NCBI GenBank assembly: GCA_018897155.1
Contig: JAHILE010000001.1
Location: forward strand, 1 to 13,605
Direction of reading: 5' to 3'
Source of the DNA: Nanoarchaeota archaeon
Lineage (GTDB): Archaea > EX4484-52 > LFW-46
DNA: 13,605 bases
This document shows positions 251 to 13,605 of this stretch, piece after piece. How positions within the stretch are numbered: position 1 is the stretch's first letter; the number at the start of each line of letters is the position of its first letter. Made by a program: the position numbers and the translations under genes. Below the pieces are notes generated by a model. The model had not been told where the DNA came from. It saw only the letters and a list, made by a program, of their open reading frames with translations, and made no database searches.

Positions 251-916
251 TTGATTAATGAGGTTGTAGAAAGTTTTTTGAACTCTAACTCAGGTGCAGA
301 AGAAATTGAACTAGCCGGTTATAGGTATCTCAAGAATTCGGAATTGACATGTACTGAGATGACTCCTAAAATGAGAGAAAGTGTACGCAAAAAATTGACT
401 ATCGAACTTCGCAGTAGTCTTCGTTCTAAGGAAAGGTTGGATGGGGAACTATTCAATAACTTTAATGAATTTACAAAAGAATATCATAACGAAGATATTG
501 AAAAACTCAAGAAATTGAAAAAATCATCTCAAGAATACAGAGATGAGATGGATTCAAAATTAAATTATGTTGATACTCATTATGGAGCTAAATCTAACGC
601 ATATTTTGTTGAAGCGTTACAAAAATATACGGAACATCAGAACGTAAATAAGTCTTCTGATGTAGATTCTTCATTACAAAAAAACTTCAGTCCATTAACT
701 GAATCTTTTGCATATTACCTGAATATACAACGCGGCGACCGACTTAAAGAAGAAGCAAAAGAAACGCTGCTCGAAAACGGAATATACGCTAAAAACAACA
801 AAGAACGTCTGAAGTACGAAATTGCTCTTAGAACCGTTTTCAAGATGCATGATGAAGTCAAGAAATACGGAAATTTAAGCGACGAAGATGCCTTAAATAC
901 ACTTTCAACTAAATGA
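251..916 (+). pseudogene. 5' part of an unknown gene split by IS630
   Basis: A 221-aa product from TTG 251, charged and mostly helical, with a Lys/Glu-rich likely coiled coil around residues 70-105. I do not recognise the family and see no signal peptide or membrane segment. The frame is open back to a stop at 134-136 and the extra 38 codons look protein-like, but hold no ATG, GTG or TTG, so the native start is probably lost to the insertion sequence at 1-136. A TATA-like stretch lies at 132-145. The native sequence ends at codon 893-895; the last residues (NTLSTK) are encoded by the end of the IS630 element. Joining codon 895 to base 2177 continues the frame for 66 residues, giving an original protein of at least 281 aa. 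Whether the truncated product is made is unknown. Confidence 0.65.
896..905 (+). repeat. Left terminal inverted repeat of the IS630 element
   Basis: AATACACTTT, preceded by TA at 894-895. It pairs with 2165-2174 with one mismatch. The transposase stop (TCA on the plus strand, 905-907) starts on its last base. The flanking TTA is shared, so the core TTAARTACACTTT is 12 of 13 identical at both ends. Confidence 0.75.
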
Positions 917-1432
917 TAGCTCTTTTTCTATGTATGCGCCGATAGCATTCATGCCTTCTCTTACAGTTTGAAAATCGCTGTTGTTCAAAACAAATCGTTG
1001 TATCAATCCAAAATCCCGTTCAATAGGATTCAGCCATGAAGATCTTTTCGGCAGCGGAAGGATTTTTATCCTCGGATTCAGGTCAAGAAATATCTGTGTG
1101 TCTTTTGAAGTATGTGCGCTCCAGCCATCCCAAATAAGACATATGTCTTTATCCGGATATATTTCAAGAAGCTTTTGCATAAATTGAATAACAATAAACG
1201 AATTTTTCCAATCATAAAATGAATAATGAACTGCTCTTGTATGGATGTTCCTTGCGGCAAATAAATCGCATATCCCTTTCACTTTTTGGCCGTAAGGGAT
1301 GTGATAATATCCTTTGAAAGTGTATTTTTGTCCGCCATATTCTTTTATGGCTGTTTTTCCTTTTTCGTCAAATGAAATAACAACGCTATTTGCGGGCGGA
1401 TTTGCTATTGCCTGTTCTATAATCTGCTTTTT
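905..1432 (-). CDS. IS630 transposase, catalytic DDE part (orfB, -1 frame)
   Basis: This frame holds the RNase H-like catalytic core: first Asp in VVISFDEKG, second Asp in CLIWDGWSAHTSK, and Glu in SSWLNPIERDFG, with 35 residues between the last two. WLNPIE and the SAHTSK context are typical of IS630. The frame opens only after a TAA at the 5' edge of the A7 run, so the shift must occur within that run. A GTG at 1282-1280 could start a shorter product, but that lacks the first catalytic Asp, so fusion to the upstream part is required for activity. The stop lies at the left terminal repeat. Confidence 0.8.
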   Translation of the reverse strand, partial: KKQIIEQAIANPPANSVVISFDEKGKTAIKEYGGQKYTFKGYYHIPYGQKVKGICDLFAARNIHTRAVHYSFYDWKNSFIVIQFMQKLLEIYPDKDICLIWDGWSAHTSKDTQIFLDLNPRIKILPLPKRSSWLNPIERDFGLIQRFVLNNSDFQTVREGMNAIGAYIEKELSFS

Positions 1433-2064
1433 TTAAAAAAGTTCTTATCAGGGCTGTATTGCCAACGCTTGCTTTTTTCAAGCTTTGCTCCGGATTTATT
1501 CAGTATCTGTCGGACGCTTTCAATGCTTATTGATTTTACAACATTTTTTTCAACAAGATGTTTTTTGAATCTTGGAAGAGTCCATGCAGTAAAAACATAG
1601 CCGAATTCTTTCGGCTCTTTTGAGAAATTCAAAAGAATATTTTTCTTTATTTCCTCAGTAAATTTAGGCTCTGCTCCTTTTGCTTTTTTTCTTTCTAGGG
1701 AGTTCAATCCGTTTTTATTAAATGCTTTTATAGCGTCCCTTACTTTTCTTTCTTCACATCCGACTCTTTCTGCGATTGGTTTTGAAAATAATTTTTCTGC
1801 TGAAAGCAGAATAATTCTTGCCCGATCTTTTGTAAACGAACTTGTTGATTTTGAAGCGTTTTTCAACGCTTCAAATTCTTCTTTCGTTGGTTTTCTTGCA
1901 TAAATCGATGCATTTGATTTATGGCGTTTTCCGAATTTGTAAACCGGTTCAATCGGCCCTAAATACCGGATTACTTTTTGTTTTACCGAACCGTCAATTC
2001 TTTTTCCAGTTACGAAGTATTTGTATTTTCTTCCATTTACGATTTTTATTCGCACATAAGACAT
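1417..2064 (-). CDS. IS630 transposase, N-terminal part (orfA)
   Basis: A 215-aa DNA-binding half. Residues 1-60 form a basic beta-rich leader (YVRIKIVNGRKY, then VIRYLGP). Residues about 60-200 resemble the paired helix-turn-helix / winged-helix region of IS630 transposases, with KDRARIILLSAE, then SKPIAERVGCEERKV and a second helical unit ending SIESVRQILNKSGAK. An AGGTG lies 6 bases before ATG 2064 and a weak ATTATA further upstream. Zero-frame translation ends shortly after a T6A7 run; the catalytic domain continues in the -1 frame, and a full enzyme would be about 386 aa. Either translation or transcription slips there, or the gene is broken. Confidence 0.8.
   Translation of the reverse strand: MSYVRIKIVNGRKYKYFVTGKRIDGSVKQKVIRYLGPIEPVYKFGKRHKSNASIYARKPTKEEFEALKNASKSTSSFTKDRARIILLSAEKLFSKPIAERVGCEERKVRDAIKAFNKNGLNSLERKKAKGAEPKFTEEIKKNILLNFSKEPKEFGYVFTAWTLPRFKKHLVEKNVVKSISIESVRQILNKSGAKLEKSKRWQYSPDKNFFKKSRL
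1428..1440 (-). other. T6A7 slip site joining the two transposase frames
   Basis: The minus strand reads TTTTTTAAAAAAAG, with zero-frame codons TTT TTT AAA AAA AGC. A -1 slip on the A run gives AAA AAG CAG and enters the catalytic frame. It does not fit a standard tandem X XXY YYZ heptamer in this phase, so RNA polymerase slippage or single-tRNA slippage on A7 is more likely. A one-base sequencing or assembly error in a homopolymer is possible. Confidence 0.55.
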
Positions 2065-2377: not shown

Positions 2378-2508
2378 TTGCTTTTTCTTTCTCTAATCAG
2401 CTTCATCAGCGCGAGCAGCCCCTTTAAAATCTCCTTTGGAGATGGCGGGTTTCCCGGGATTCTGGCATCAACCGGAATTACCTTATCCGCGCACCATAAT
2501 TCATAGAT
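2374..2508 (-). pseudogene. C-terminal relic of a NuoB/[NiFe]-hydrogenase small subunit
   Basis: The last 40 codons read WCADKVIPVDARIPGNPPSP then a helix KEILKGLLALMKL and stop at 2376-2374. This closely follows the C-terminal signature of the oxidored_q6 family (NuoB, EchC, MbhJ): DK-IPVD-x-x-IPGCPP-x-P followed by an amphipathic helix. The cluster-binding Cys of IPGCPP is Asn here. There is no ATG, GTG or TTG in frame and a stop lies just upstream (2511-2509), so it is a decayed fragment. It overlaps the 3' end of the LCIB-like gene by 8 bases. Assignment rests on motif recall over 40 residues. Confidence 0.5.
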
Positions 2509-3268
2509 TCATTAAATCTATTTCGCTTTTAGTGCCTTCATATGTTTTAATTAACACCGCATCCCGGAAATGCGACATATCCTCAAATCCCGGATCTGTG
2601 TTTATATCAACGGCTCCAAAAACCACGCCGTTTTTTACAGTGGTTGTTAAATGATGCATTGAAAGATCATATAATTTGTCTGTTATGGCTTTTATTTCCA
2701 GTTCGGGATTTTTCAGCGAGAGTATGGCGTCCTTATAATTGGATAGTGTGTCTTCCATACTTTTGAATTCCCAATGATGATCGGGATTGAACTTACCTCC
2801 ATGCCATTTACTCAAAAGGCCCAGAAGTGCGCCGCAACCTAAAGAAATATTTTCTATTGTGGGCCGCTCTACTTTTCCGAGAACGCCATTTTTGTTCATA
2901 GTCGTATGAACGTTTAGTATGAAACATGGATAGTATGGCTCTTCAAAATGATGTTTATACGGCGCAAGTGATTTAATATTAAAATATGTTGCGTTCCCGC
3001 CATAAACCGCAAGATCAAATACTGCTGCAAAAGGGGCATTGTTGACATAGTTTCTCATTTTTCTTTCCACTTCATCCCTGCAGGTAATTGAGCCAACAAA
3101 CGCATTTTCGGGCTCCAAGCCATTATCTTTCAGCAGGTCCAGTATTTTTGGAACAAAATCTTTTGAAGGAATTGCTCCCGGATAATGTTCGTTGATTTTA
3201 TTATAAACATCCTTTTCTGCAAGAATCTTTCGATATTCTATTGTTGCAGCATCCAAATCATTCATCAT
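2501..3268 (-). CDS. LCIB-family carbonic anhydrase homologue
   Basis: A 255-aa soluble protein. Motifs match the LCIB_C_CA family, beta-type zinc carbonic anhydrases known from algal CO2-concentrating systems. GSITCRDEVER (Cys63, Asp65, Arg69) gives the first zinc Cys and the Asp/Arg pair; YGGNATYF with HHFEEP (about 89-111) fits the GG...HH segment; VHTTMNKNGVLGKVERP (His121) gives the zinc His; SLGCGALLG (Cys145) gives the second Cys. All three predicted ligands are present, so activity (CO2 + H2O to HCO3- + H+) is plausible, though some family members are inactive. ATG 3268 is followed by a second ATG; GGTGAT lies just upstream. It is divergent from a beta carbonic anhydrase with 120 bases between. 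Assignment is from motif recall, not a search. Confidence 0.65.
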   Translation of the reverse strand: MMNDLDAATIEYRKILAEKDVYNKINEHYPGAIPSKDFVPKILDLLKDNGLEPENAFVGSITCRDEVERKMRNYVNNAPFAAVFDLAVYGGNATYFNIKSLAPYKHHFEEPYYPCFILNVHTTMNKNGVLGKVERPTIENISLGCGALLGLLSKWHGGKFNPDHHWEFKSMEDTLSNYKDAILSLKNPELEIKAITDKLYDLSMHHLTTTVKNGVVFGAVDINTDPGFEDMSHFRDAVLIKTYEGTKSEIDLMNL

Positions 3269-3388
3269 ATCACCATTGATTATTGTATGACGTTAGCTAC
3301 TGTAGTTACGAGCTAAGTGTTACACAACCTCTTTCATTGAATGTTTTAAGCTTTTAAATGTTTCGCATTTAATAGTGAATGTGATTTT
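3269..3388. promoter_or_regulatory. Divergent promoter region between two carbonic anhydrase genes
   Basis: On the plus strand TTTTAAAT (3352-3359) lies about 33 bases before ATG 3389 and is the likely TATA box. No convincing box was found for the minus-strand gene. TTAGCT (3293-3298) and AGCTAA (3311-3316) form an inverted repeat, with a smaller CTAC-T-GTAG dyad overlapping its left arm. A regulator acting on both genes could bind here. Confidence 0.4.
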
Positions 3389-4177
3389 ATGGAGCTTGCG
3401 GACGTATTTCTTGGAAACCTGAATCATGTTAAAACTGCCGGAAACGGCGCATATGTGCCGCATATGGCTGGCCAGCATCCGTCATTATGCATTTTGCATT
3501 GTTCGGATTCGCGCGAGAATTTCAATCTTATTGCAGATGTGAAGCCTTCTATGGGCGAGATATTCAAAGTGGAAAATGCCGGAAATGTGCTTGACGGCTC
3601 TGTTTCGGCTTTAGGCGGTGTGGCTTATTCTGTTGTGCATCTTGGCATAAAAAACGTGCTTGTATTCGGGCACACCGGATGCGGCGCAATAAAGGCGGCA
3701 TTTGGGAATTATGCTGTTGATGCATGGCCCATAGCAGACCATATACGTTTGCTTGAGCCTGTTGCAAGGCTTTCACAGATAATCATTTCCAGGATAGAAG
3801 GCAGGAATGTTTCGCGGGAAGAAATCTGCAAAAATGATTTGTTTCTTACAAAGGCTGCCGAATTGAATGTGGCTTACCAGGTGAATTATCTGAACCAGGT
3901 ATTCGCAGGCATCGGGATATCCCACATCAAAGTATATGGTGCGATGCACGATCTTCACGGCCATTACGGAGGGGATAACGGTAAATTGTATCTTGTAGAA
4001 TCTCCGAAAGAAGATGGTTTGGATGCATATTTAAGCGCATATAAAAAGAATCTTGCAGTTCTTGACAAACCATTTGGAGATATTTTTTCTGATTTGGGAA
4101 TTTCGTACAACATACCGCTAAAATCATATGCGGTTACCCCTGTGCATGAAGAACATATCGAACAGCAGGCCAAATAG
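3389..4177 (+). CDS. Beta-class carbonic anhydrase
   Basis: A 262-aa cytoplasmic enzyme interconverting CO2 and bicarbonate. All beta-class zinc-site residues are visible: CSDSR (Cys38, Asp40, Arg42), then FGHTGCGA (His95, Cys98), with the VENAGN segment at 61-66 and hydrophobic strands before each motif. The length is slightly above the usual 190-230 aa owing to a C-terminal extension of about 50 residues (LDAYLSAYKKNLAVLDKPF onward) that I cannot assign. ATG 3389 follows the TATA box at 3352-3359. It converges with the DUF4239 gene 44 bases downstream and is divergent from the LCIB-like gene. Class assignment is firm; physiological role is inferred. Confidence 0.93.
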   Translation: MELADVFLGNLNHVKTAGNGAYVPHMAGQHPSLCILHCSDSRENFNLIADVKPSMGEIFKVENAGNVLDGSVSALGGVAYSVVHLGIKNVLVFGHTGCGAIKAAFGNYAVDAWPIADHIRLLEPVARLSQIIISRIEGRNVSREEICKNDLFLTKAAELNVAYQVNYLNQVFAGIGISHIKVYGAMHDLHGHYGGDNGKLYLVESPKEDGLDAYLSAYKKNLAVLDKPFGDIFSDLGISYNIPLKSYAVTPVHEEHIEQQAK

Positions 4178-4221
4178 TTTGAATGCGGTTCATTATCTTG
4201 GATGCCATTGCAGGCCGTAGA

Positions 4222-4956
4222 TTATTGCGCACATTCATCTGATTTTATTATGCGCACAACCTGCCGGTAAGGCTCGTTTGAGACTTCTTCTTCGGCAAGT
4301 TTCATGGATTCAAGCTCATATATCACTATTAGAATCATAAGAACTGCGGCAATCATTGACGATACAATAAAAATTGAAAGCAAATAATTGGGCAATGAAG
4401 TCAATATCAAACCTGTAATCAAAATGCCTGAAAGGAATATGTTGAGAATCCATTGTACTTTCGAAATCTTTGTCTGCGAAAGCACAAGCTGCGAGTTTCT
4501 TGCAGCCGAAGCATCCCGCAATTCATCACCGATGTCGTCAAACAGTTCGACGTCTTTCTGGGTTTTTAATTTTATGTTCGCGAACAATTCCAGAATCTGC
4601 CTGAAAGTCCTGTGCGTTTTTTCGCTTTTCCAGTAGTCGCGCCACTCGATTTCCGGAACCTGTAGGCAGTATTCTATTATTTTGTCTTTCATCCTGGTTG
4701 CCGATACTTTATCCGAAAGCTTTTTTGCAAAGATGTTCGCAGTTATCAGCGAATTGGTTTCCTCTGCTATCGCATCCCTTATCTTGCTGAAGCGCTCCCA
4801 GGCATTATTTATCGTAAATGCGGAAATGAGGCCGTAAATCAGCCCGATTACAGTAAGAAACAGGCTCATTTCATCCAAAGAAAATACGTTTATTGTGTTT
4901 AAAGAAAGCAGGAACGCAGATAATACCGCAAAAACCATGTACGTGTAGGTTCTCAT
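4222..4956 (-). CDS. DUF4239 bestrophin-like membrane protein
   Basis: A 244-aa protein with two N-terminal membrane helices (about 5-26 and 31-50), a soluble helical middle, and two C-terminal helices (about 168-190 and 194-214). The segment after helix 2, AFTINNAWERFSKIRDAIAEE, is the signature of DUF4239, a family distantly related to bestrophin anion channels. A role in bicarbonate or chloride passage is possible; no substrate can be read from the sequence. It lies beside two carbonic anhydrase genes, which makes bicarbonate worth considering. The promoter probably uses the AT tract at 4986-4995 on the minus strand, shared back to back with htpX. Confidence 0.7.
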   Translation of the reverse strand: MRTYTYMVFAVLSAFLLSLNTINVFSLDEMSLFLTVIGLIYGLISAFTINNAWERFSKIRDAIAEETNSLITANIFAKKLSDKVSATRMKDKIIEYCLQVPEIEWRDYWKSEKTHRTFRQILELFANIKLKTQKDVELFDDIGDELRDASAARNSQLVLSQTKISKVQWILNIFLSGILITGLILTSLPNYLLSIFIVSSMIAAVLMILIVIYELESMKLAEEEVSNEPYRQVVRIIKSDECAQ

Positions 4957-5041: not shown

Positions 5042-5956
5042 ATGCGCATGACTTCAAAACAACCTCTTGCGCGCATCGACATGCAGGACCAGATATCTGC
5101 GAACCGCAGGAATTCGATTCTATTAATGCTGATTGTACCGGCAATAATGGTGCTTCTGATATATTCAATCGGAATGGTGTATAATCCAAGTGCGATTTTC
5201 ACATTCCTCATCATAGGCACGATTTTCTCAATGGTTTTCACAATAGGCTCATATTACTATAGCGATAAAATCGTTCTTGCGACAACAGGCGCAAGGCCGG
5301 CAACAAAGCAGGAGAACGCGTTTTTAGTTAATACTGTCGAAGGACTTGCGCTTGCGGCAGGAATGCCTGCGCCAAGAATCTATGTTCTTGACAGCCCGGA
5401 TATCAACGCTTTTGCAACAGGCAGGGATCCTGCGCACGGAATAATTGTTGTCACAACAGGAATCATGCAGCGCCTGAACCGCCAGGAGCTTGAAGGGGTG
5501 GTTGCGCACGAAATGTCGCATATAGCGAATTTTGACATAAGATTCGCAACGCTTATCGCAGTTCTTGTCGGAATGGTCAGCATCATCAGCCAGATGTTTC
5601 TGAGAAGCCTGTGGTTCAACTCAGGCGGCAATGACAGAGGGCGCGGAAATGCTATTTTTGTTGTTATAGGCATTGTTCTAGCAATACTTGCGCCGATTGT
5701 AACTCACTTGATACAATTGGCTGTTTCGCGCCAGAGAGAATATCTGGCAGACGCAAACGGAGCGTTTTTGACGCGATATCCTGAAGGATTGGCGTCTGCG
5801 CTTGAGAAAATTTCAAAGTCAGCGACAACAATCAAGCCATCGGGAGCCGTGTCTCATCTTTTCTTTGCAAACCCGGTAAAGCGCCTGAACGCAGAAAGCA
5901 TGTTCTCGACGCATCCGCCGATAGATGAGCGAATCAAAAGATTAAGGGCGATGTAA
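5042..5956 (+). CDS. htpX: Membrane zinc metalloprotease HtpX (M48)
   Basis: A 304-aa membrane-anchored protease, a membrane quality-control enzyme that cleaves misfolded membrane proteins. It shows two N-terminal membrane helices (about 26-46 and 51-73), the HEMSH zinc motif at 156-160 (HExxH), two further helices (about 166-190 and 204-226), then SRQREYLADANGAF with Glu233 as third zinc ligand. The C-terminal LFFANP...FSTHPPIDERIKRL is the standard M48B ending. Length and architecture are normal. The second ATG (5048) fits a leaderless transcript from the TATA box at 5019-5026 better, so the true start may be two codons later. It is divergent from the DUF4239 gene. Confidence 0.95.
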   Translation: MRMTSKQPLARIDMQDQISANRRNSILLMLIVPAIMVLLIYSIGMVYNPSAIFTFLIIGTIFSMVFTIGSYYYSDKIVLATTGARPATKQENAFLVNTVEGLALAAGMPAPRIYVLDSPDINAFATGRDPAHGIIVVTTGIMQRLNRQELEGVVAHEMSHIANFDIRFATLIAVLVGMVSIISQMFLRSLWFNSGGNDRGRGNAIFVVIGIVLAILAPIVTHLIQLAVSRQREYLADANGAFLTRYPEGLASALEKISKSATTIKPSGAVSHLFFANPVKRLNAESMFSTHPPIDERIKRLRAM

Positions 5957-7410: not shown

Positions 7411-7583
7411 ATGAAGATAATTTTCGCCAGAAACAATTGGTTTGCTTATCTTTTTTTCGAGTTCGCGCCTTGCCGACATGAGCGAAAAGGCGCTGCATGA
7501 TTCATATTCGTGATTTTGCGGAGTTTGGCATGTATATTGATGAGTTAGACAATTATGGATACATTTCATCGATATCAAAGATG
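7411..7583. other. Non-coding gap before hicB
   Basis: No convincing gene. The minus strand of about 7372-7490 reads SARRELEKKISKPIVSGENY onward, which looks like a broken coding remnant with no proper start or end. A weak copy of the intergenic repeat begins at 7471. Confidence 0.4.
7471..7520 (+). repeat. Diverged copy (C) of an intergenic repeat
   Basis: TGCCGACATGAGCGAAAAGG at 7471-7490 matches 9651-9670 of the best copy at 17 of 20 bases. A TTTGCGG block follows at 7514 as in the other copies, but the central hairpin and TTCGGACGTT block are not recognisable. Same orientation as the other copies; probably decayed. Confidence 0.4.
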
Positions 7584-7592
7584 TTTTTAAAC
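7584..7592 (+). promoter_or_regulatory. TATA box of hicB
   Basis: TTTTTAAAC is centred 26 bases before ATG 7614. A second CTTTAAAC follows at 7592-7599. The spacing decides the hicB start at 7614 rather than the in-frame ATG at 7497. Confidence 0.55.
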
Positions 7593-7613
7593 TTTAAACG
7601 GCAATATAATAAC

Positions 7614-7826
7614 ATGGCTAAAGAATATACGGTAATAATCGAGCAGGGAGAAGACGGCTACTTAATTGCTTCAGTAGTGGAGCTTCCCGGCTGCCATACT
7701 CAGGCAAAGACTATGGAAGAATTATTAAGCCGCATAAAAGAAGCGATTTCTTTATATCTGGAAGTTGAAAAGGATATCGAACCCACCAGATTCGTAGGTA
7801 TTCAAAAGGTAGAGGTTATTGCATAA
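7614..7826 (+). CDS. hicB: HicB-family antitoxin
   Basis: A 70-aa protein with the HicB partial RNase H-like fold: YTVIIEQGEDGYLIASVVEL, PGCHTQAKTMEELLSRIKEAI, then SLYLEVEKDIEP. The GYLIASVVELPGC and helix match HicB closely. In the family it binds and neutralises the HicA toxin. This short form ends soon after the fold and lacks the ribbon-helix-helix or helix-turn-helix domain many HicB proteins use to repress their operon. The longer frame from 7497 adds 39 residues that do not look like HicB. hicA follows after 106 bases, an unusually wide gap for a pair that normally overlaps or nearly so. Confidence 0.88.
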   Translation: MAKEYTVIIEQGEDGYLIASVVELPGCHTQAKTMEELLSRIKEAISLYLEVEKDIEPTRFVGIQKVEVIA

Positions 7827-8161: not shown

Positions 8162-8280
8162 ATGGGGTGTGGCAATTTGCCACCATCCTTTAGCGAGAAA
8201 GCGCATACGCGTGCGGCTCGCGCTTCGGACGTTTGCGGGGGCGAGATGGGGTGTGTATGAATGATTTGCGCAGCAATCAT
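8162..8280. other. Dyads and direct repeats around repeat copy A
   Basis: ATGGGGTGTG occurs at 8162-8171 and again at 8246-8255, bracketing repeat copy A. GTGGCAA-T-TTGCCAC (8169-8183) is a perfect palindrome just after hicA and may end its transcript. ATGATT...AATCAT (8261-8280) forms another hairpin over the ATPase stop codon. No gene is seen. Confidence 0.55.
8192..8245 (+). repeat. Intergenic repeat copy A
   Basis: It shares two exact blocks with copy B: 15 bases at 8192-8206 (= 9661-9675) and 26 bases at 8218-8243 (= 9698-9723). Between them the sequence differs in length (11 versus 22 bases). CTCGC (8217-8221) and GCGAG (8241-8245) enclose the second block. It lies between hicA and the 3' end of the ATPase gene. 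Confidence 0.85.
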
Positions 8281-9539
8281 AGTCCTAAAAACCATTTCCA
8301 AATCGGTGTGTATTTTATTTTTTTGCCGCCGGATTTTTCCTCACCTTCATAATTCCAAGTTATGATCAGAAGATTGTTGCATTTTAAATCATCGGATGCT
8401 TTCAAAAGACCTTTTATTTCACGCTCTTTTGTATCTGGGTTCCCAACATCATAGCATACCTGTATCAGCTGACGAATCTTTGAACCTTCCTTTATTACAA
8501 AATCCGTTTCTTTTCCGAAATAATCTTTATAGTAGTATATCTCAGTATTCATCCCTTCCAAAGATTGCCTTCTTAATAATTCTACTGCAACGGCGTTTTC
8601 CATAATGCGGCCGAAATTCGATGCAGATTGGAACGCAATAGCGTTTATCATTCCCGTATCTATCGCATATATTTTTTTCGGAGAGGTTATCCGTTCTTTC
8701 TGCTTGAATGAAAACCGGTCAAGGGAAAAAATAAGATACGTTTCCTCTATATAGCTTACGTAATTTTGGACGGTGTGGACGCTTCTGAAATTCAGCATAT
8801 TTTTAAGATTCGTAAAAGACGCCTCTTGGGCAAATCCGGACATAAGGTATTTTGCAAGGTTGTACAAAGCGTCCGAATACTTTATGCGATATCGCTTTAC
8901 GATGTCCTTGAATATGATGCTGTCAAAAAGGCTCTGAAGATATGCATAATCATATCCTTTAACGACTACTTCCGGAAATCCCCCTGTTTCAAGGTATTTT
9001 TTTAATCTGTTCATTATATCTCCGGTTTCTTCCTGAGTATATTCTTTTTTGAATTCAAAGCCAGATGCCTCTAAAGATTCTTTGAACGAAAACGGGAACA
9101 TTTCAAATGACAAATGTCTTCCTGTAAGGTGAGTTGCAAGCTCGGCGCTGAGAAGCTTTGCGTTTGAGCCAGTAATCATGAGGTTGTATCCCCTTCTTTT
9201 CAGGCTGTTTGCCCAAAGCTCCCATTTGGGCAGGTTTTGTATTTCATCCAGAAGAAGGTACGTTACATCGCCGTAAAATTCCTTTATGTATTTCAGGATT
9301 TCATCATAGTTCTTTGCTTCTGCCAGCTCTTTTTCATCGAAATTCACATACGCAAATTCTTTATCGTGAAGCGCCATAAAGCAGAATACTGATTTGCCGC
9401 ATCGCCTTATGCCAGCAACTACTTTTATCATATCGCTCGGCATGTATTTTTCAATATTTTTTGAAACCTCGCGCCCGACGAAAGCCGTTTTTAATATCCG
9501 TTCTTTTTCCTGCTTCTGACGCAATATGACTTCTCTCAT
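8277..9539 (-). CDS. AAA_14 / DUF4143 ATPase
   Basis: A 420-aa protein of the archaeal-type ATPase family. Residues 40-135 hold the AAA_14 domain: Walker A GIRRCGKS (43-50), Walker B YLLLDEIQN (94-102), sensor ITGSNAKLLS. Residues about 205-380 form DUF4143, ending with YYYKD..GKETDFVIKEG..LIQVCYD, a PD-(D/E)xK-like end. The family is common in archaea and anaerobic bacteria, often in many copies, and its role is not settled. Start ATG 9539 lies about 27 bases from a TATATATA box on the minus strand. The gene is flanked by direct repeats (copies A and B), suggesting acquisition as a unit. All ATPase motifs look intact. Confidence 0.88.
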   Translation of the reverse strand: MREVILRQKQEKERILKTAFVGREVSKNIEKYMPSDMIKVVAGIRRCGKSVFCFMALHDKEFAYVNFDEKELAEAKNYDEILKYIKEFYGDVTYLLLDEIQNLPKWELWANSLKRRGYNLMITGSNAKLLSAELATHLTGRHLSFEMFPFSFKESLEASGFEFKKEYTQEETGDIMNRLKKYLETGGFPEVVVKGYDYAYLQSLFDSIIFKDIVKRYRIKYSDALYNLAKYLMSGFAQEASFTNLKNMLNFRSVHTVQNYVSYIEETYLIFSLDRFSFKQKERITSPKKIYAIDTGMINAIAFQSASNFGRIMENAVAVELLRRQSLEGMNTEIYYYKDYFGKETDFVIKEGSKIRQLIQVCYDVGNPDTKEREIKGLLKASDDLKCNNLLIITWNYEGEEKSGGKKIKYTPIWKWFLGL

Positions 9540-9553
9540 ACAGCATTATTTAA

Positions 9554-9600
9554 CTGCACAAATATATATAGTTTTGTGCAGTATGATGTATGAACTGCAC
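9554..9600 (-). promoter_or_regulatory. ATPase promoter: TATA box inside an inverted repeat
   Basis: CTGCACAAA (9554-9562) and TTTGTGCAG (9573-9581) form a perfect 9-bp inverted repeat. The 10-base spacer contains TATATATA (9563-9570), centred about 27 bases from ATG 9539. A third half-site CTGCACA lies at 9594-9600. A protein bound to both arms would block TBP, so this looks like a repressor operator, possibly autogenous. Confidence 0.6.
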
Positions 9601-9650
9601 AGCACATATGGCAGCGAGGTATTCGCGTATGGCTGTATGATGGCTATATT

Positions 9651-9727
9651 TGCCGATATGAGCGAGAAAGCGCATGCACATGCGCATACTCGCGCAATCG
9701 CGCTTCGGACGTTTGCGGGGGCGCGAG
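9651..9727 (+). repeat. Intergenic repeat copy B
   Basis: The longest copy. GCGCATG-CA-CATGCGC (9670-9685) is a perfect hairpin, and CTCGCGC (9689-9695) pairs with GCGCGAG (9721-9727). Exact blocks 9661-9675 and 9698-9723 are shared with copy A. It lies between the ATPase promoter and the 3' end of hsdM. An open frame runs through it on the plus strand but looks like chance. Confidence 0.85.
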
Positions 9728-9730
9728 AAG

Positions 9731-11200
9731 TTATAGACTTAAACCCTTTAAAGACTCTGCAATTTTATTCTCAAGATCCAATATCTTCTTCTTTATAACT
9801 TCCGGCTTTTCATATTCGATTTCTTCATACTCTATTTCTTTATACTTCGATATGCTCAAGTCGTAATCCTTCTCTTTAATTTCTTTTATTGGAACAAAGA
9901 AACATTTTCCTTTCCTGTCTGATTGGTCTTCTTTGTGTCTTTTTTTGAATCGTTCAATAATATCCGGAATATCATTTTTGTCAGTCATGGTTCTTTTGTC
10001 ATCCAAACTGAAGCCATCGCTTTGCATATCATAGAACCACACTTCTTTTGTTGGCTCGCCTTTTGTGAAAAACATCACAGCAGTTGATACCCCGGCATAT
10101 GGCTTAAATACGCCAGACGGCATAGATATTATCGCATCAAGACGGCACTTTTCAAGCAAAAGTTCTCTAATCATCTTATGTGCTTTTGAATTTCCGAATA
10201 ATACGCCATCTGGAACGATTACTGCACATTTTCCGCTGTTTGTCAGTAGGTTGTACATAAGTTCCAAAAACAATAACTCTGTTTTGGTTGTATGAGTCCT
10301 GAAATTTTCCCCGATTTCAGATTCATCAAGACTTCCCTTAAACGGCGGATTTGCCAATATTACATCATAGCAATTTGATTCGTCATATCTTTTTGATAAG
10401 GTATTTTTCTGCTCAATGTTGGGATTGTTAATCCCGTGCATCATTAAGTTCATTAAAGATATTCTCACCATCGTCTGGTCAAAATCATACCCGTATAGCG
10501 TTTCTTCTCTTAGCATCCTCCACTGGTGTTCGTTTAATTTGTCCCCCGCCAAGTTTCCTGCTTTAACTAATTCTTTTGAGGTGTTGTCCATTAAGATGTA
10601 TTCATAAGCAGTAAGCAAAAATCCGGCAGTTCCGCAGGCAGGATCGCATATTCGATCCCCGTATTTTGGCTCAAGAATCTCAGCCATCATTTTAATAATG
10701 TGCCTTGGAGTCCTAAACTGCCCGTTTTTTCCGGCAGTTTGCAATTGCCCTAAAAGGTATTCATACATATCGCCTTTAGTGTCCCTATTCTGCTCTTTTA
10801 TGTGCATGTCGTTGATTATTTTTACCGCTTCAACAAGCAAAGATGCGGTAGGAATAGAAAAGCTTGCATCCTTCATATATTTTGAATATATGGAATTTTC
10901 TCCGCCGTTAATCTTTCTTAAGAAAGGAAATACTTTATCCCTTACGTGCTCAAGCATTTGTTCTGCAGGATACTCCGCCCACACAGACCATTTATAGTCT
11001 TCATGGCCTTTGAATATTGAATCAAACGGCTTTTCTAAAAGATTGGCATTTTGCTTTCTTGAAACCTCCTCGTCTTCCAGCCGTTTCATAAAGATAAGGT
11101 AAGACATCTGCTCTATCGCCTGAAGCGGATTTGATATTCCCCCGCTCCAGAATTTATTCCACAGCAAGTTTATTTTTGATTTTAGTTCTGAGTCTAGCAT
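9731..11200 (-). CDS. hsdM: Type I restriction-modification methyltransferase subunit HsdM
   Basis: A 489-aa adenine-N6 methyltransferase subunit. The HsdM_N helical domain is at about 1-135 (LWNKFWSGGISNP, SYLIFMKRLED). GQFRTPRHI (160-168) leads into the Rossmann-type domain with SAM motif I DPACGTAGF (186-194) and catalytic motif IV NPPF (284-287). A C-terminal helix (KKKILDLENKIAESL) fits the HsdS-contact region. With HsdS it methylates the recognition sequence; with HsdR it restricts foreign DNA. GAGGT lies about 8 bases before ATG 11200. It is the last gene of a four-gene operon, 5 bases after the Bro-N gene. Confidence 0.95.
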   Translation of the reverse strand: MLDSELKSKINLLWNKFWSGGISNPLQAIEQMSYLIFMKRLEDEEVSRKQNANLLEKPFDSIFKGHEDYKWSVWAEYPAEQMLEHVRDKVFPFLRKINGGENSIYSKYMKDASFSIPTASLLVEAVKIINDMHIKEQNRDTKGDMYEYLLGQLQTAGKNGQFRTPRHIIKMMAEILEPKYGDRICDPACGTAGFLLTAYEYILMDNTSKELVKAGNLAGDKLNEHQWRMLREETLYGYDFDQTMVRISLMNLMMHGINNPNIEQKNTLSKRYDESNCYDVILANPPFKGSLDESEIGENFRTHTTKTELLFLELMYNLLTNSGKCAVIVPDGVLFGNSKAHKMIRELLLEKCRLDAIISMPSGVFKPYAGVSTAVMFFTKGEPTKEVWFYDMQSDGFSLDDKRTMTDKNDIPDIIERFKKRHKEDQSDRKGKCFFVPIKEIKEKDYDLSISKYKEIEYEEIEYEKPEVIKKKILDLENKIAESLKGLSL

Positions 11201-11205
11201 GATAA

Positions 11206-12069
11206 TTACCTCTTTTTAATCTTTTTTTCATCTATTTCAAAAGCATTATTTGATGACAACTCCAAAAGATTGTCTTTTGCATTTTTTGATGTCACTATGC
11301 TTTCGCCCAATTGTTTTTCTATATCTTTTCTTGTATTTCCTGCAACCTTGCCACCCAATATCGCCACATTCCTGCTGTGATTGAATGTTTTAGGATCTTC
11401 TTTTTTTGAAAATTCTGTTGTTGTGGCTTCTGCAAGCATGTTCAAAACAAGTTCAAGATTAGACATGTTATCCCGCAGATTTTCTTTCTTTAAGTTTTTT
11501 AGGTTTTTGTATTCTGCGATTGTTTTTCCAGACCATGCTTTTGTAATTTCGTTTGTAAGTATGGCAAAGTCCGATTCTTTTTCTATTCCAACCCTATTCC
11601 ATTCATCAGTCAGGTCCTTTCTCACTTCGATTGTTTTTAATCTCTGATTAATCCATTCCTTTGAATACCCTTTATGCAAGTATGTTTTCATGACCCTGTC
11701 AAGTCCCAGTTCAGGGTCATAAGTTTCATTTATTCGTTCATTGCCGACTTTTGCAAGCCAGATTTTGAACGGCTCTGCCTTTTTTGAAGGTATTGACTGG
11801 ATTAGCCTTAGAATCTGCTCGGTGTTGCCTACATCTGTAAGATATTGCTTTCCATCCGAGGATTGCATTTTCAGTTGGCTACAATTTGTAGCCAACTGGC
11901 TTCCCTCTGCTTTTAGCCGTGTCTTAAGAACGCTCCAATATTTTCTTGGGTTCTGGCTTTCTGTAAGAATGGCAATCACATCAATTATCGAAAAATACCA
12001 TTCGTTTTCAAACCACATGGTTCTGACATTATTGTTTTCAAAAAGCTTTATTGAATGTTCTTCAGCCAT
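11206..12069 (-). CDS. Bro-N / DinD-like protein embedded in the RM operon
   Basis: A 287-aa protein. Residues 1-110 are a Bro-N domain (LFENNNVRTMWFENEWYFSI, IDVIAIL, LTDVGNTEQILRLIQSIPS, EPFKIWLAKVG), found in phage antirepressors and baculovirus BRO proteins. The rest (ETYDPELGLDR, KGYSKEWINQR, LTDEWNRVGI, ITKAWSGKTIAEYKNLK, KENLRDNMSNLELVLNMLAEA) matches long chromosomal relatives of DinD. Such genes are often found within type I RM loci; DNA binding is likely but function is not established. GAGGTGA lies 4 bases before ATG 12069 and overlaps the stop of the preceding gene, so translation is probably coupled. A 27-base DNA palindrome lies within the coding region at 11872-11898. Confidence 0.82.
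   Translation of the reverse strand: MAEEHSIKLFENNNVRTMWFENEWYFSIIDVIAILTESQNPRKYWSVLKTRLKAEGSQLATNCSQLKMQSSDGKQYLTDVGNTEQILRLIQSIPSKKAEPFKIWLAKVGNERINETYDPELGLDRVMKTYLHKGYSKEWINQRLKTIEVRKDLTDEWNRVGIEKESDFAILTNEITKAWSGKTIAEYKNLKNLKKENLRDNMSNLELVLNMLAEATTTEFSKKEDPKTFNHSRNVAILGGKVAGNTRKDIEKQLGESIVTSKNAKDNLLELSSNNAFEIDEKKIKKR
11872..11898. repeat. Perfect palindrome inside the Bro-N gene
   Basis: CAGTTGGCTACAA (11872-11884), one central base, then TTGTAGCCAACTG (11886-11898). It encodes SQLATNCSQL at the end of the first part of the Bro-N domain. Related proteins keep a similar SQLVTNCxQLK peptide there, as I recall, so the site may be conserved at both protein and DNA level. Confidence 0.85.
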
Positions 12070-12078
12070 AATTTCACC

Positions 12079-12720
12079 TCAATTACTATCTTTCGCACCA
12101 AATTCTTCTTTTTCCTCGTCATCTAAAATGCGTTTGTATTTCTCGCAAAGCTGATTGTATTGGCTTTGGTCTTTTTTTAATTCTGCAAATTCCAAAAGAA
12201 AATAAACAATATCATAAAGCGCATAATCATCTTCTTTGATATTTTCCGCTTCTTTTTCAGCCAATTCTTTGAATCTGCTTAATTTTTCTTCACCCAAATT
12301 AGACATTATCGTTTTATGTGCAGATTCAAAACCATATTCGTCTTTTGCTTTTAGAAACTCCATATATTCCTTAAAAATATCTTCAACTGAAAAGGCATTT
12401 ATGAGGCATAAAAAATAGTTTGCGACAATCTTTTCAAAGTTAAACTTTCCGACAATGTCCTCATAATCAAAATAATTGTATTCATTCTGCAAAAGAAAGA
12501 ACATCAGCTTTTTGTAGCATTTTTGGCATTCGGCATAATTTTGTTTTTTGAACTCGTCTTCAATCATCCGAAAATACGCCTTAAGTAGCTTAAGCCCTTC
12601 CTGGCCGCATTTATAATCATAATGATACGCGCCGTTTTTCGCATTGATTATGAATTTATCAATATCTTTTTCCAAGCTTTCCTCGCTTAGAGTATACTGT
12701 TTTATTACTTTCACTTTCAT
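12079..12720 (-). CDS. Unknown 213-aa helical protein in the RM operon
   Basis: Almost entirely helical and acidic, with repeated aromatic/Lys patterns (GLKLLKAYFRMIEDEFKKQN, CQKCYKKLMFFLLQNEYNYF, DIVYFLLEFAELKKDQSQYN) that recall TPR-like or four-helix scaffolds. No catalytic motif or known family recognised. CQKC is a possible CxxC, but isolated. ATG 12720 overlaps the hsdS stop as ATGA, so it is translated after hsdS, and the Bro-N gene follows after 9 bases. Its place between hsdS and hsdM suggests an accessory to the RM system, perhaps a regulator or partner protein; this is inferred. Confidence 0.7.
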   Translation of the reverse strand: MKVKVIKQYTLSEESLEKDIDKFIINAKNGAYHYDYKCGQEGLKLLKAYFRMIEDEFKKQNYAECQKCYKKLMFFLLQNEYNYFDYEDIVGKFNFEKIVANYFLCLINAFSVEDIFKEYMEFLKAKDEYGFESAHKTIMSNLGEEKLSRFKELAEKEAENIKEDDYALYDIVYFLLEFAELKKDQSQYNQLCEKYKRILDDEEKEEFGAKDSN

Positions 12721-13605
12721 ACAGCCAACTCCCCCTTGAAAGCTTTCTGCATAAGCGCGTTGAAAAGATCGTCAATTCGCCCTTTTGACTGCTTTTGATG
12801 CTCTTTTATTTGCTCAACCCGCTCAACAATTGCGGCGAATTTTTGCTGAAGTTCGATAGGTGGAAATAAAATCTCAATATTTTCAATTTGTTTTGAACTA
12901 ACATTTGGTTGCAGAGAAGTAGAACAAAACTTATCAACTTCTTTTAAAAAAAACTCAGTAAGACAGAAATGCTTTAGATAAGTGGGATTCAATTCTTTGG
13001 AGTTGATTACAAAACGTCCAACTCTTTGATTTAATAAAGCCGGTAAGTCATTTTCAATTATCGCTATAATTTTAACTGTACTTAGCGATTTAATGATCGG
13101 ACGAGTCATTGCCATAACAATATCGCCGGGTTTTAAAAGAAACTCAGGATATTTCACATTATATCCCTCAGGGACATATGTTATATCATCCCAGTTTACA
13201 AAACCATAATGAACATTCGTTATTTTAACTAATTTAATTCCAGCGTCTCGATAATCTTTACTTTTAAATGCAAAACCGCCTTGAAACTTTGCACCTCGCG
13301 ATATTTTTTCTTTTGTAAATTTCTTATTATTTGTGATGGGGTCCCCAAACATCTCCATAAAAACGCTTTTCAAGAAATCCTTTGTCAGTTCATCGGCTTC
13401 TTTGCGCCATTCCTTTGCTTTCTCTGCTTTCTCCAAGATGGAGACGATTTTTTGCTGGGTGGGAAGTGGTGGGAGAGGGATTTTAATATGTTGATAGTTA
13501 GATAAATAATACCTTTTATGTGTGGTGGAATCAACATTTATTGTTTGCATCAGCCAGAAAACAAACTTTAAATCAATATCTTTAGTTTTGGGAGTTAACA
13601 ATTTC
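12717..13605 (-). CDS. hsdS: Type I RM specificity subunit HsdS, 5' end beyond window
   Basis: At least 296 codons, with the frame open through the window edge; a TTG at 13601 is not a convincing start. Visible parts in order: the end of target-recognition domain 1 (QHIKIPLPPLPTQQKIVSIL), the central conserved coiled coil (EKAEKAKEWRKEADELTKDFL, then MFGDP), target-recognition domain 2 (about 95-250, GGFAFKSKDY...RPIIKSLSTVK...NQRVGRFV), PPIELQQKFAAIVERVEQI and the terminal coil ending NALMQKAFKGELAV. HsdS chooses the DNA sequence through its two recognition domains and holds two HsdM. It stands upstream of hsdM, with two other genes between. Confidence 0.93.
   Translation of the reverse strand, partial: KLLTPKTKDIDLKFVFWLMQTINVDSTTHKRYYLSNYQHIKIPLPPLPTQQKIVSILEKAEKAKEWRKEADELTKDFLKSVFMEMFGDPITNNKKFTKEKISRGAKFQGGFAFKSKDYRDAGIKLVKITNVHYGFVNWDDITYVPEGYNVKYPEFLLKPGDIVMAMTRPIIKSLSTVKIIAIIENDLPALLNQRVGRFVINSKELNPTYLKHFCLTEFFLKEVDKFCSTSLQPNVSSKQIENIEILFPPIELQQKFAAIVERVEQIKEHQKQSKGRIDDLFNALMQKAFKGELAV

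Follow-up and report, generated by a model that had tools for sequence, protein, structure and literature searches.

A recurrent position of carbonic anhydrase (CA) genes in the archaeal A-type ATPase operon, between atpB and atpD, is a stronger result of our analysis than the trio of neighbouring genes found in the window, the 13,605-nucleotide stretch of DNA analysed here, which is one entire contig of a 1.43-Mb source genome assembled in 62 contigs. In nine genomes, atpB and atpD have a CA gene between them, on the same strand as both: the CA is LCIB-type in G008, G013 and G018 and beta-type in G006, G011, G020, G336, G587 and G441 (loci L025, L026, L029, L035, L036, L096, L098, L126 and L127; three LCIB-type and six beta-type). 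These genomes are spread over five archaeal families and two phyla, with LCIB in family f2, beta-CA in family f6, and beta-CA again in three families of the other phylum. What is directly observed for the CAs in this slot is gene content, order, strands, spacing, conserved active-site residues and the differing CA families.

In f2, the slot contains two tandem LCIB genes in G008 and G013, and a single one in G018. Another f2 genome, G002, has an LCIB gene after atpB (L027:7320-8126) and an LCIB-like gene before atpD (L028:4867-5727), located at the ends of two contigs, and these are probably one tandem pair split by assembly. The G002 gene adjoining atpD stays below the Pfam cut-off (22.3 bits vs. 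25); all other slot CAs that were tested are confirmed by Pfam, as are AtpB and AtpD in one genome per group. In the f6 genomes (G006, G011 and G020), a beta-CA occupies the exact position of the f2 LCIB, between atpB and atpD. The best match to this f6 beta-CA outside the phylum, in G336, is likewise found between atpB and atpD, and comparison of the G336 protein with the phylum of G336 (236 genomes sampled) reveals the same gene order in two further families, represented by G587 and G441. The junctions within the slot range from -17 nt (overlap) to +14 nt, except for 182 nt in G018 and 74 nt in G441. As no membrane segments are detected in the slot CAs, they are most simply seen as cytosolic, on the side of the ATPase head.

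In the home phylum, 10 of the 18 CA genes, both families included, are located in the atpB-atpD slot or abut it; for eight of the ten, a single contig spans both flanks. When CA-free clusters are taken for comparison, namely those of f3 and the examined ones of f4 and f7 except G007, atpD directly follows atpB. G007 carries between the two genes a 178-aa ORF that is not CA-like (G007:C25, L051:914-1447). Of the two A-ATPase clusters in G018, one (L029) has LCIB in the slot and the other (L081) has atpB next to atpD; two atpD genes are also present in several other genomes of the phylum. Outside the phylum, LCIB was detected in a single archaeon, G336; this LCIB (L082) is off-slot, beside a glutamate-dehydrogenase-like gene, and it is the beta-CA of G336 that sits in the slot (L098). 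The relatives are MAGs, 57-99% complete, and a shared assembly fault in f2 is unlikely, because the names of the f2 MAGs come from several sampling projects.

Phylogeny bears on how the slot came to be occupied. The AtpB sequences of f2 (LCIB) and f6 (beta-CA) group as sisters in a tree (99/97), the operons of the other phylum falling elsewhere. Either the f2/f6 ancestor had a slot CA and one family then replaced the other, or the CAs were gained independently in each group. The six slot beta-CAs are close together in the tree of their family, with two proteins not seen beside an ATPase among them, and the slot label needs at least two changes. It looks as if one CA family had been exchanged for another at a fixed operon position, and the presence of different CA families in one slot is suggestive of selection for CA activity beside the ATPase.

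One possibility, which we put forward tentatively and which is perhaps somewhat more likely to fail than to hold, is that CA serves the A-type ATP synthase as a dedicated accessory in several archaeal lineages. It would couple CO2/bicarbonate chemistry to rotary proton transport, the LCIB- and beta-type enzymes being interchangeable at the same operon position. The slot CA would be made together with the ATPase and would supply or absorb protons on its cytosolic side via the CO2/bicarbonate couple. When ATP drives pumping, the protons could come from CO2 hydration; during ATP synthesis, bicarbonate could take up the incoming protons and leave as CO2. The genomic context thus read suggests that these CA relatives may serve to balance protons and pH, and not to concentrate carbon. 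Many ATPase operons in the phylum are without a CA, which counts against such a role.

The window contains two CA genes, and neither is between atpB and atpD. The first, on the minus strand (2501..3268; 255 aa), encodes an LCIB-type CA, which matches PF18599 (LCIB_C_CA) in a Pfam scan (4.8e-15; 55.9 bits for a curated cut-off of 25) and algal LCIB 5k5w by sequence (2.9e-6). Its zinc residues were correctly predicted as Cys63, His121 and Cys145: they align with the Cys/His/Cys of 5k5w and, together with Asp65, His107 and Arg135, are invariant among the archaeal and Nitrospirae LCIB relatives. The AlphaFold2 model, built from 8 sequences, is of low confidence (pLDDT 58, pTM 0.60); its best PDB match is PtLCIB4 5b60 (2.1e-9), and of the eight PDB matches with E <0.001, seven are LCIB-family chains and the eighth is an entry titled 'CCM related protein'. 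After the LCIB structures come classical beta-CAs, with weaker scores, and in a review LCIB is counted as a beta-CA on account of its fold and zinc motif (PMC5876011); the two CA families of the window, described as unrelated in the original prediction, are therefore better regarded as related.

LCIB is rare in archaea, being found in 8 of 394 genomes, seven of which belong to the window's phylum. A query of the genome contigs with the single LCIB protein gave no relative, and a four-sequence LCIB alignment was used instead for the scan of these contigs. No relative of the f2 LCIB was found in viral contigs, and no LCIB relative in plasmids. In one bacterial MAG, Nitrospirae JADFYO01 (L088:6995-10843), LCIB is located two genes downstream of a gene that, by eye, resembles those of SulP-type anion transporters.

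The second CA gene of the window, on the plus strand (3389..4177; 262 aa), encodes a beta-CA that matches PF00484 (Pro_CA; 1.5e-20; 74.4 bits for a cut-off of 25.7) as well as beta-CAs of the PDB (down to 1.9e-20). Its active site is complete, as predicted, with the CxDxR...HxxC residues at positions 38, 40, 42, 95 and 98 (Cys38-Asp40-Arg42, His95 and Cys98). Its closest relatives are f7 proteins, 45-46% identical, with which it forms a clade (100/100) separate from the slot beta-CAs. No membrane segment is detected in either window CA. Both CAs probably work in the cytosol as active zinc enzymes, bringing CO2, bicarbonate and protons into equilibrium in what is a DPANN-type archaeon with a small genome.

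The best explanation for the window, in which our confidence falls just short of even, is that its CAs are cytosolic CO2/bicarbonate/proton enzymes whose role can be read from the ATPase-slot CAs of relatives. The same chemistry would then be performed in the window's genome by CAs unlinked to the ATPase. As the window CAs are off-slot, and as the atpD gene of this genome (G000:C48, L080:10586-11197) has no atpB beside it, the role is carried over by family only. Furthermore, the window LCIB is only 17-25% identical to the ATPase-slot LCIBs and to the Nitrospirae LCIB, and the window beta-CA belongs to another clade than the slot enzymes, which both count against an ATPase role.

Alternatively, carboxylating enzymes, for example RuBisCO in the AMP pathway, could receive their CO2 or bicarbonate from the CAs, but this seems unlikely. 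In its favour, the window's genome has two RuBisCO-family genes (G000:C43, L132:1477-2778, and G000:C2:5023-5859), one of them with a KDDE motif that we read as a putative catalytic site, and in this genome carbon supply is a possible CA role. However, G001, of the same genus, has RuBisCO and none of the CAs; conversely, no RuBisCO match is found in the four f6 genomes (MAGs, 57-84% complete), three of which have a slot beta-CA. Carbon fixation is hence a poor explanation for the f6 slot CAs, and RuBisCO supply is disfavoured as the reason for a CA in the slot. Close to the first RuBisCO-family gene is another gene for an HtpX-like protease, more distantly related (G000:C43:20555-21274).

Other explanations concern the third gene of the trio and the arrangement of all three. 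This gene, on the minus strand (4222..4956; 244 aa), encodes a putative bestrophin-like membrane protein, which matches PF14023, formerly DUF4239, well above the cut-off (4.1e-25; 89.2 bits vs. 32). Hydrophobic stretches are found near its two ends (7-49 and 170-212) and are compatible with the four membrane helices that had been predicted. It has no sequence match among solved structures, its single-sequence model is poor (pLDDT 57), and searches for relatives gave none in viral contigs and one weak match in plasmids. The three genes at 2501-4956 are thus adjacent and all assigned to their families above curated cut-offs, in agreement with the original prediction. It had furthermore been proposed that they constitute a compact unit for bicarbonate uptake or CO2 trapping, and this second part does not stand. 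The LCIB and beta-CA genes are head-to-head, 120 nt apart, and the beta-CA and bestrophin-like genes are tail-to-tail, 44 nt apart; with strands -, + and -, followed by + for the HtpX gene, the trio cannot be one operon or transcript. From the gene coordinates and sequence, the gap between the two CA genes (3269..3388) could house control sites for both, and TTTAAA sites around it show no excess over chance level, so that no shared promoter signal is seen.

Conservation is also lacking. Among 34 genomes of the phylum, PF18599 is found in 7, PF14023 in 2 and PF00484 in 8, the window's genome being alone in having the full set; in the same-genus G001 (89% complete), none of the three families gave a match. 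PF14023 is present in eight surveyed archaeal genomes including the window's, below the curated cut-off in three of them, and no CA is found within 1.5 kb on each side of the other seven loci. The trio is therefore rejected as a conserved unit, on the condition that the original prediction had itself set, namely that the neighbours stay together in related genomes. The best explanation for the two CA genes being side by side is lineage-specific gene gain rather than a conserved operon with the bestrophin-like gene. A local gain in the window lineage is the simplest reading of the absence from G001; alternatively, G001 may have lost the genes, or its assembly may have a gap there.

It could also be that genes gained horizontally near mobile elements have come together in the trio by chance, with no function in common, which we consider improbable as a full account. 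Left of the trio, a split transposase, the remnant of a mobile element, is found on the minus strand (905..2064), with a DDE_3 part (905-1282; PF13358, 6.4e-15) and a helix-turn-helix part (1417-2064; PF13565 and PF13551). On the other side, the trio is flanked by a gene outside the proposed unit, for an HtpX-like M48 protease (5042..5956, plus strand; PF01435, 6.3e-34). The HtpX gene of G001 (G001:C63) has as neighbours, read by eye, transposase-like ORFs, which it adjoins, and a hydrogenase-4/complex-I-like membrane-complex cluster. The absence of the three families from G001 and their patchy distribution across the phylum point in the same direction. Further along, the window contains a gene for a HicB-like antitoxin domain protein (7497-7826; PF15919, 5.3e-7) and, at 8277-13604, type I restriction-modification genes (N6 methylase and specificity subunit) with those of a Bro-N protein and an AAA_14/DUF4143 ATPase. 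On the other hand, two adjacent CA genes are unusual for a 1.4-Mb genome, and a chance neighbourhood accounts for the window but not for the recurrent ATPase slot in relatives. For the window itself, it is compatible with the best explanation given above, in which the CAs are cytosolic enzymes of proton and pH balance.

Still less likely is the uptake or trapping unit itself, in which the bestrophin-like protein would conduct bicarbonate and the two CAs would interconvert bicarbonate with CO2. All three families are plausible for such a role and are adjacent, the concentration of carbon in algae involves bestrophin-like proteins and LCIB (PMC6708349; PMC5876011), and the LCIB of one Nitrospirae MAG is near a gene that looks by eye like one for a SulP-type transporter. 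Against it, there is no operon, and the arrangement is not conserved in the 34 genomes of the phylum or in the other sampled archaea; moreover, the PF14023 protein does not match the PF01062 bestrophins in the Pfam scan, and in the literature found, no tested function, bicarbonate transport included, is described for a DUF4239/PF14023 protein. Finally, a misbinned contig is unlikely, because the window HtpX is 79% identical to that of G001, the sole same-genus genome compared, and the contig is thus probably binned correctly.

Several known systems resemble parts of what is described here. The window LCIB is like the LCIB/LCIC of algae and diatoms (PF18599; 5k5w, 5b5x, and PtLCIB4 5b5y/5b60) in its fold match, its Cys/His/Cys zinc residues, its Asp and Arg, and its predicted cytosolic location. 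The archaeal proteins differ in having no pyrenoid setting and, in relatives, in being encoded inside the ATPase operon, singly or as a tandem pair. The beta-CAs have the complete CxDxR...HxxC active site of their class (PF00484), but the slot members are unusual in lying between atpB and atpD, and that of the window in being head-to-head with LCIB. The bestrophin-like protein shares with the PF14023 family a clear profile match and predicted helices at both ends. In acid-secreting animal cells, carbonic anhydrase II works with the V-ATPase, so that a cytosolic CA serving a V/A-type rotary proton pump may have an analogue there; carbonic anhydrase II is an alpha-class enzyme without an operon, and the likeness would be functional. 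Among the published systems that we found, the DAB2 vectorial CA (DabA/DabB) comes nearest, its beta-CA-like chemistry being tied to transmembrane proton movement. Its architecture is different, as DAB2 is a dedicated CA/antiporter-like membrane complex (PMC13144422), whereas here a soluble CA is encoded in the A-ATPase operon, any physical coupling being putative. With regard to activity, a review gives a structural explanation for its absence in algal LCIB and LCIC (PMC5876011). A literature search on CA with ATPase operons, ATP synthase, V-ATPase or DPANN, partial in its coverage, returned no description of an atpB-CA-atpD order, and an earlier report may exist.

The window adds an LCIB-type CA to the few that archaea possess. 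In its relatives, the apparent exchange of CA families at a fixed operon position is a sign that it is the activity itself that is retained there. The operon slot suggests that in small-genome archaea proton buffering by CO2/bicarbonate may be linked to the ATP synthase, the coupling of a CA to a proton pump being known mainly from animal cells.
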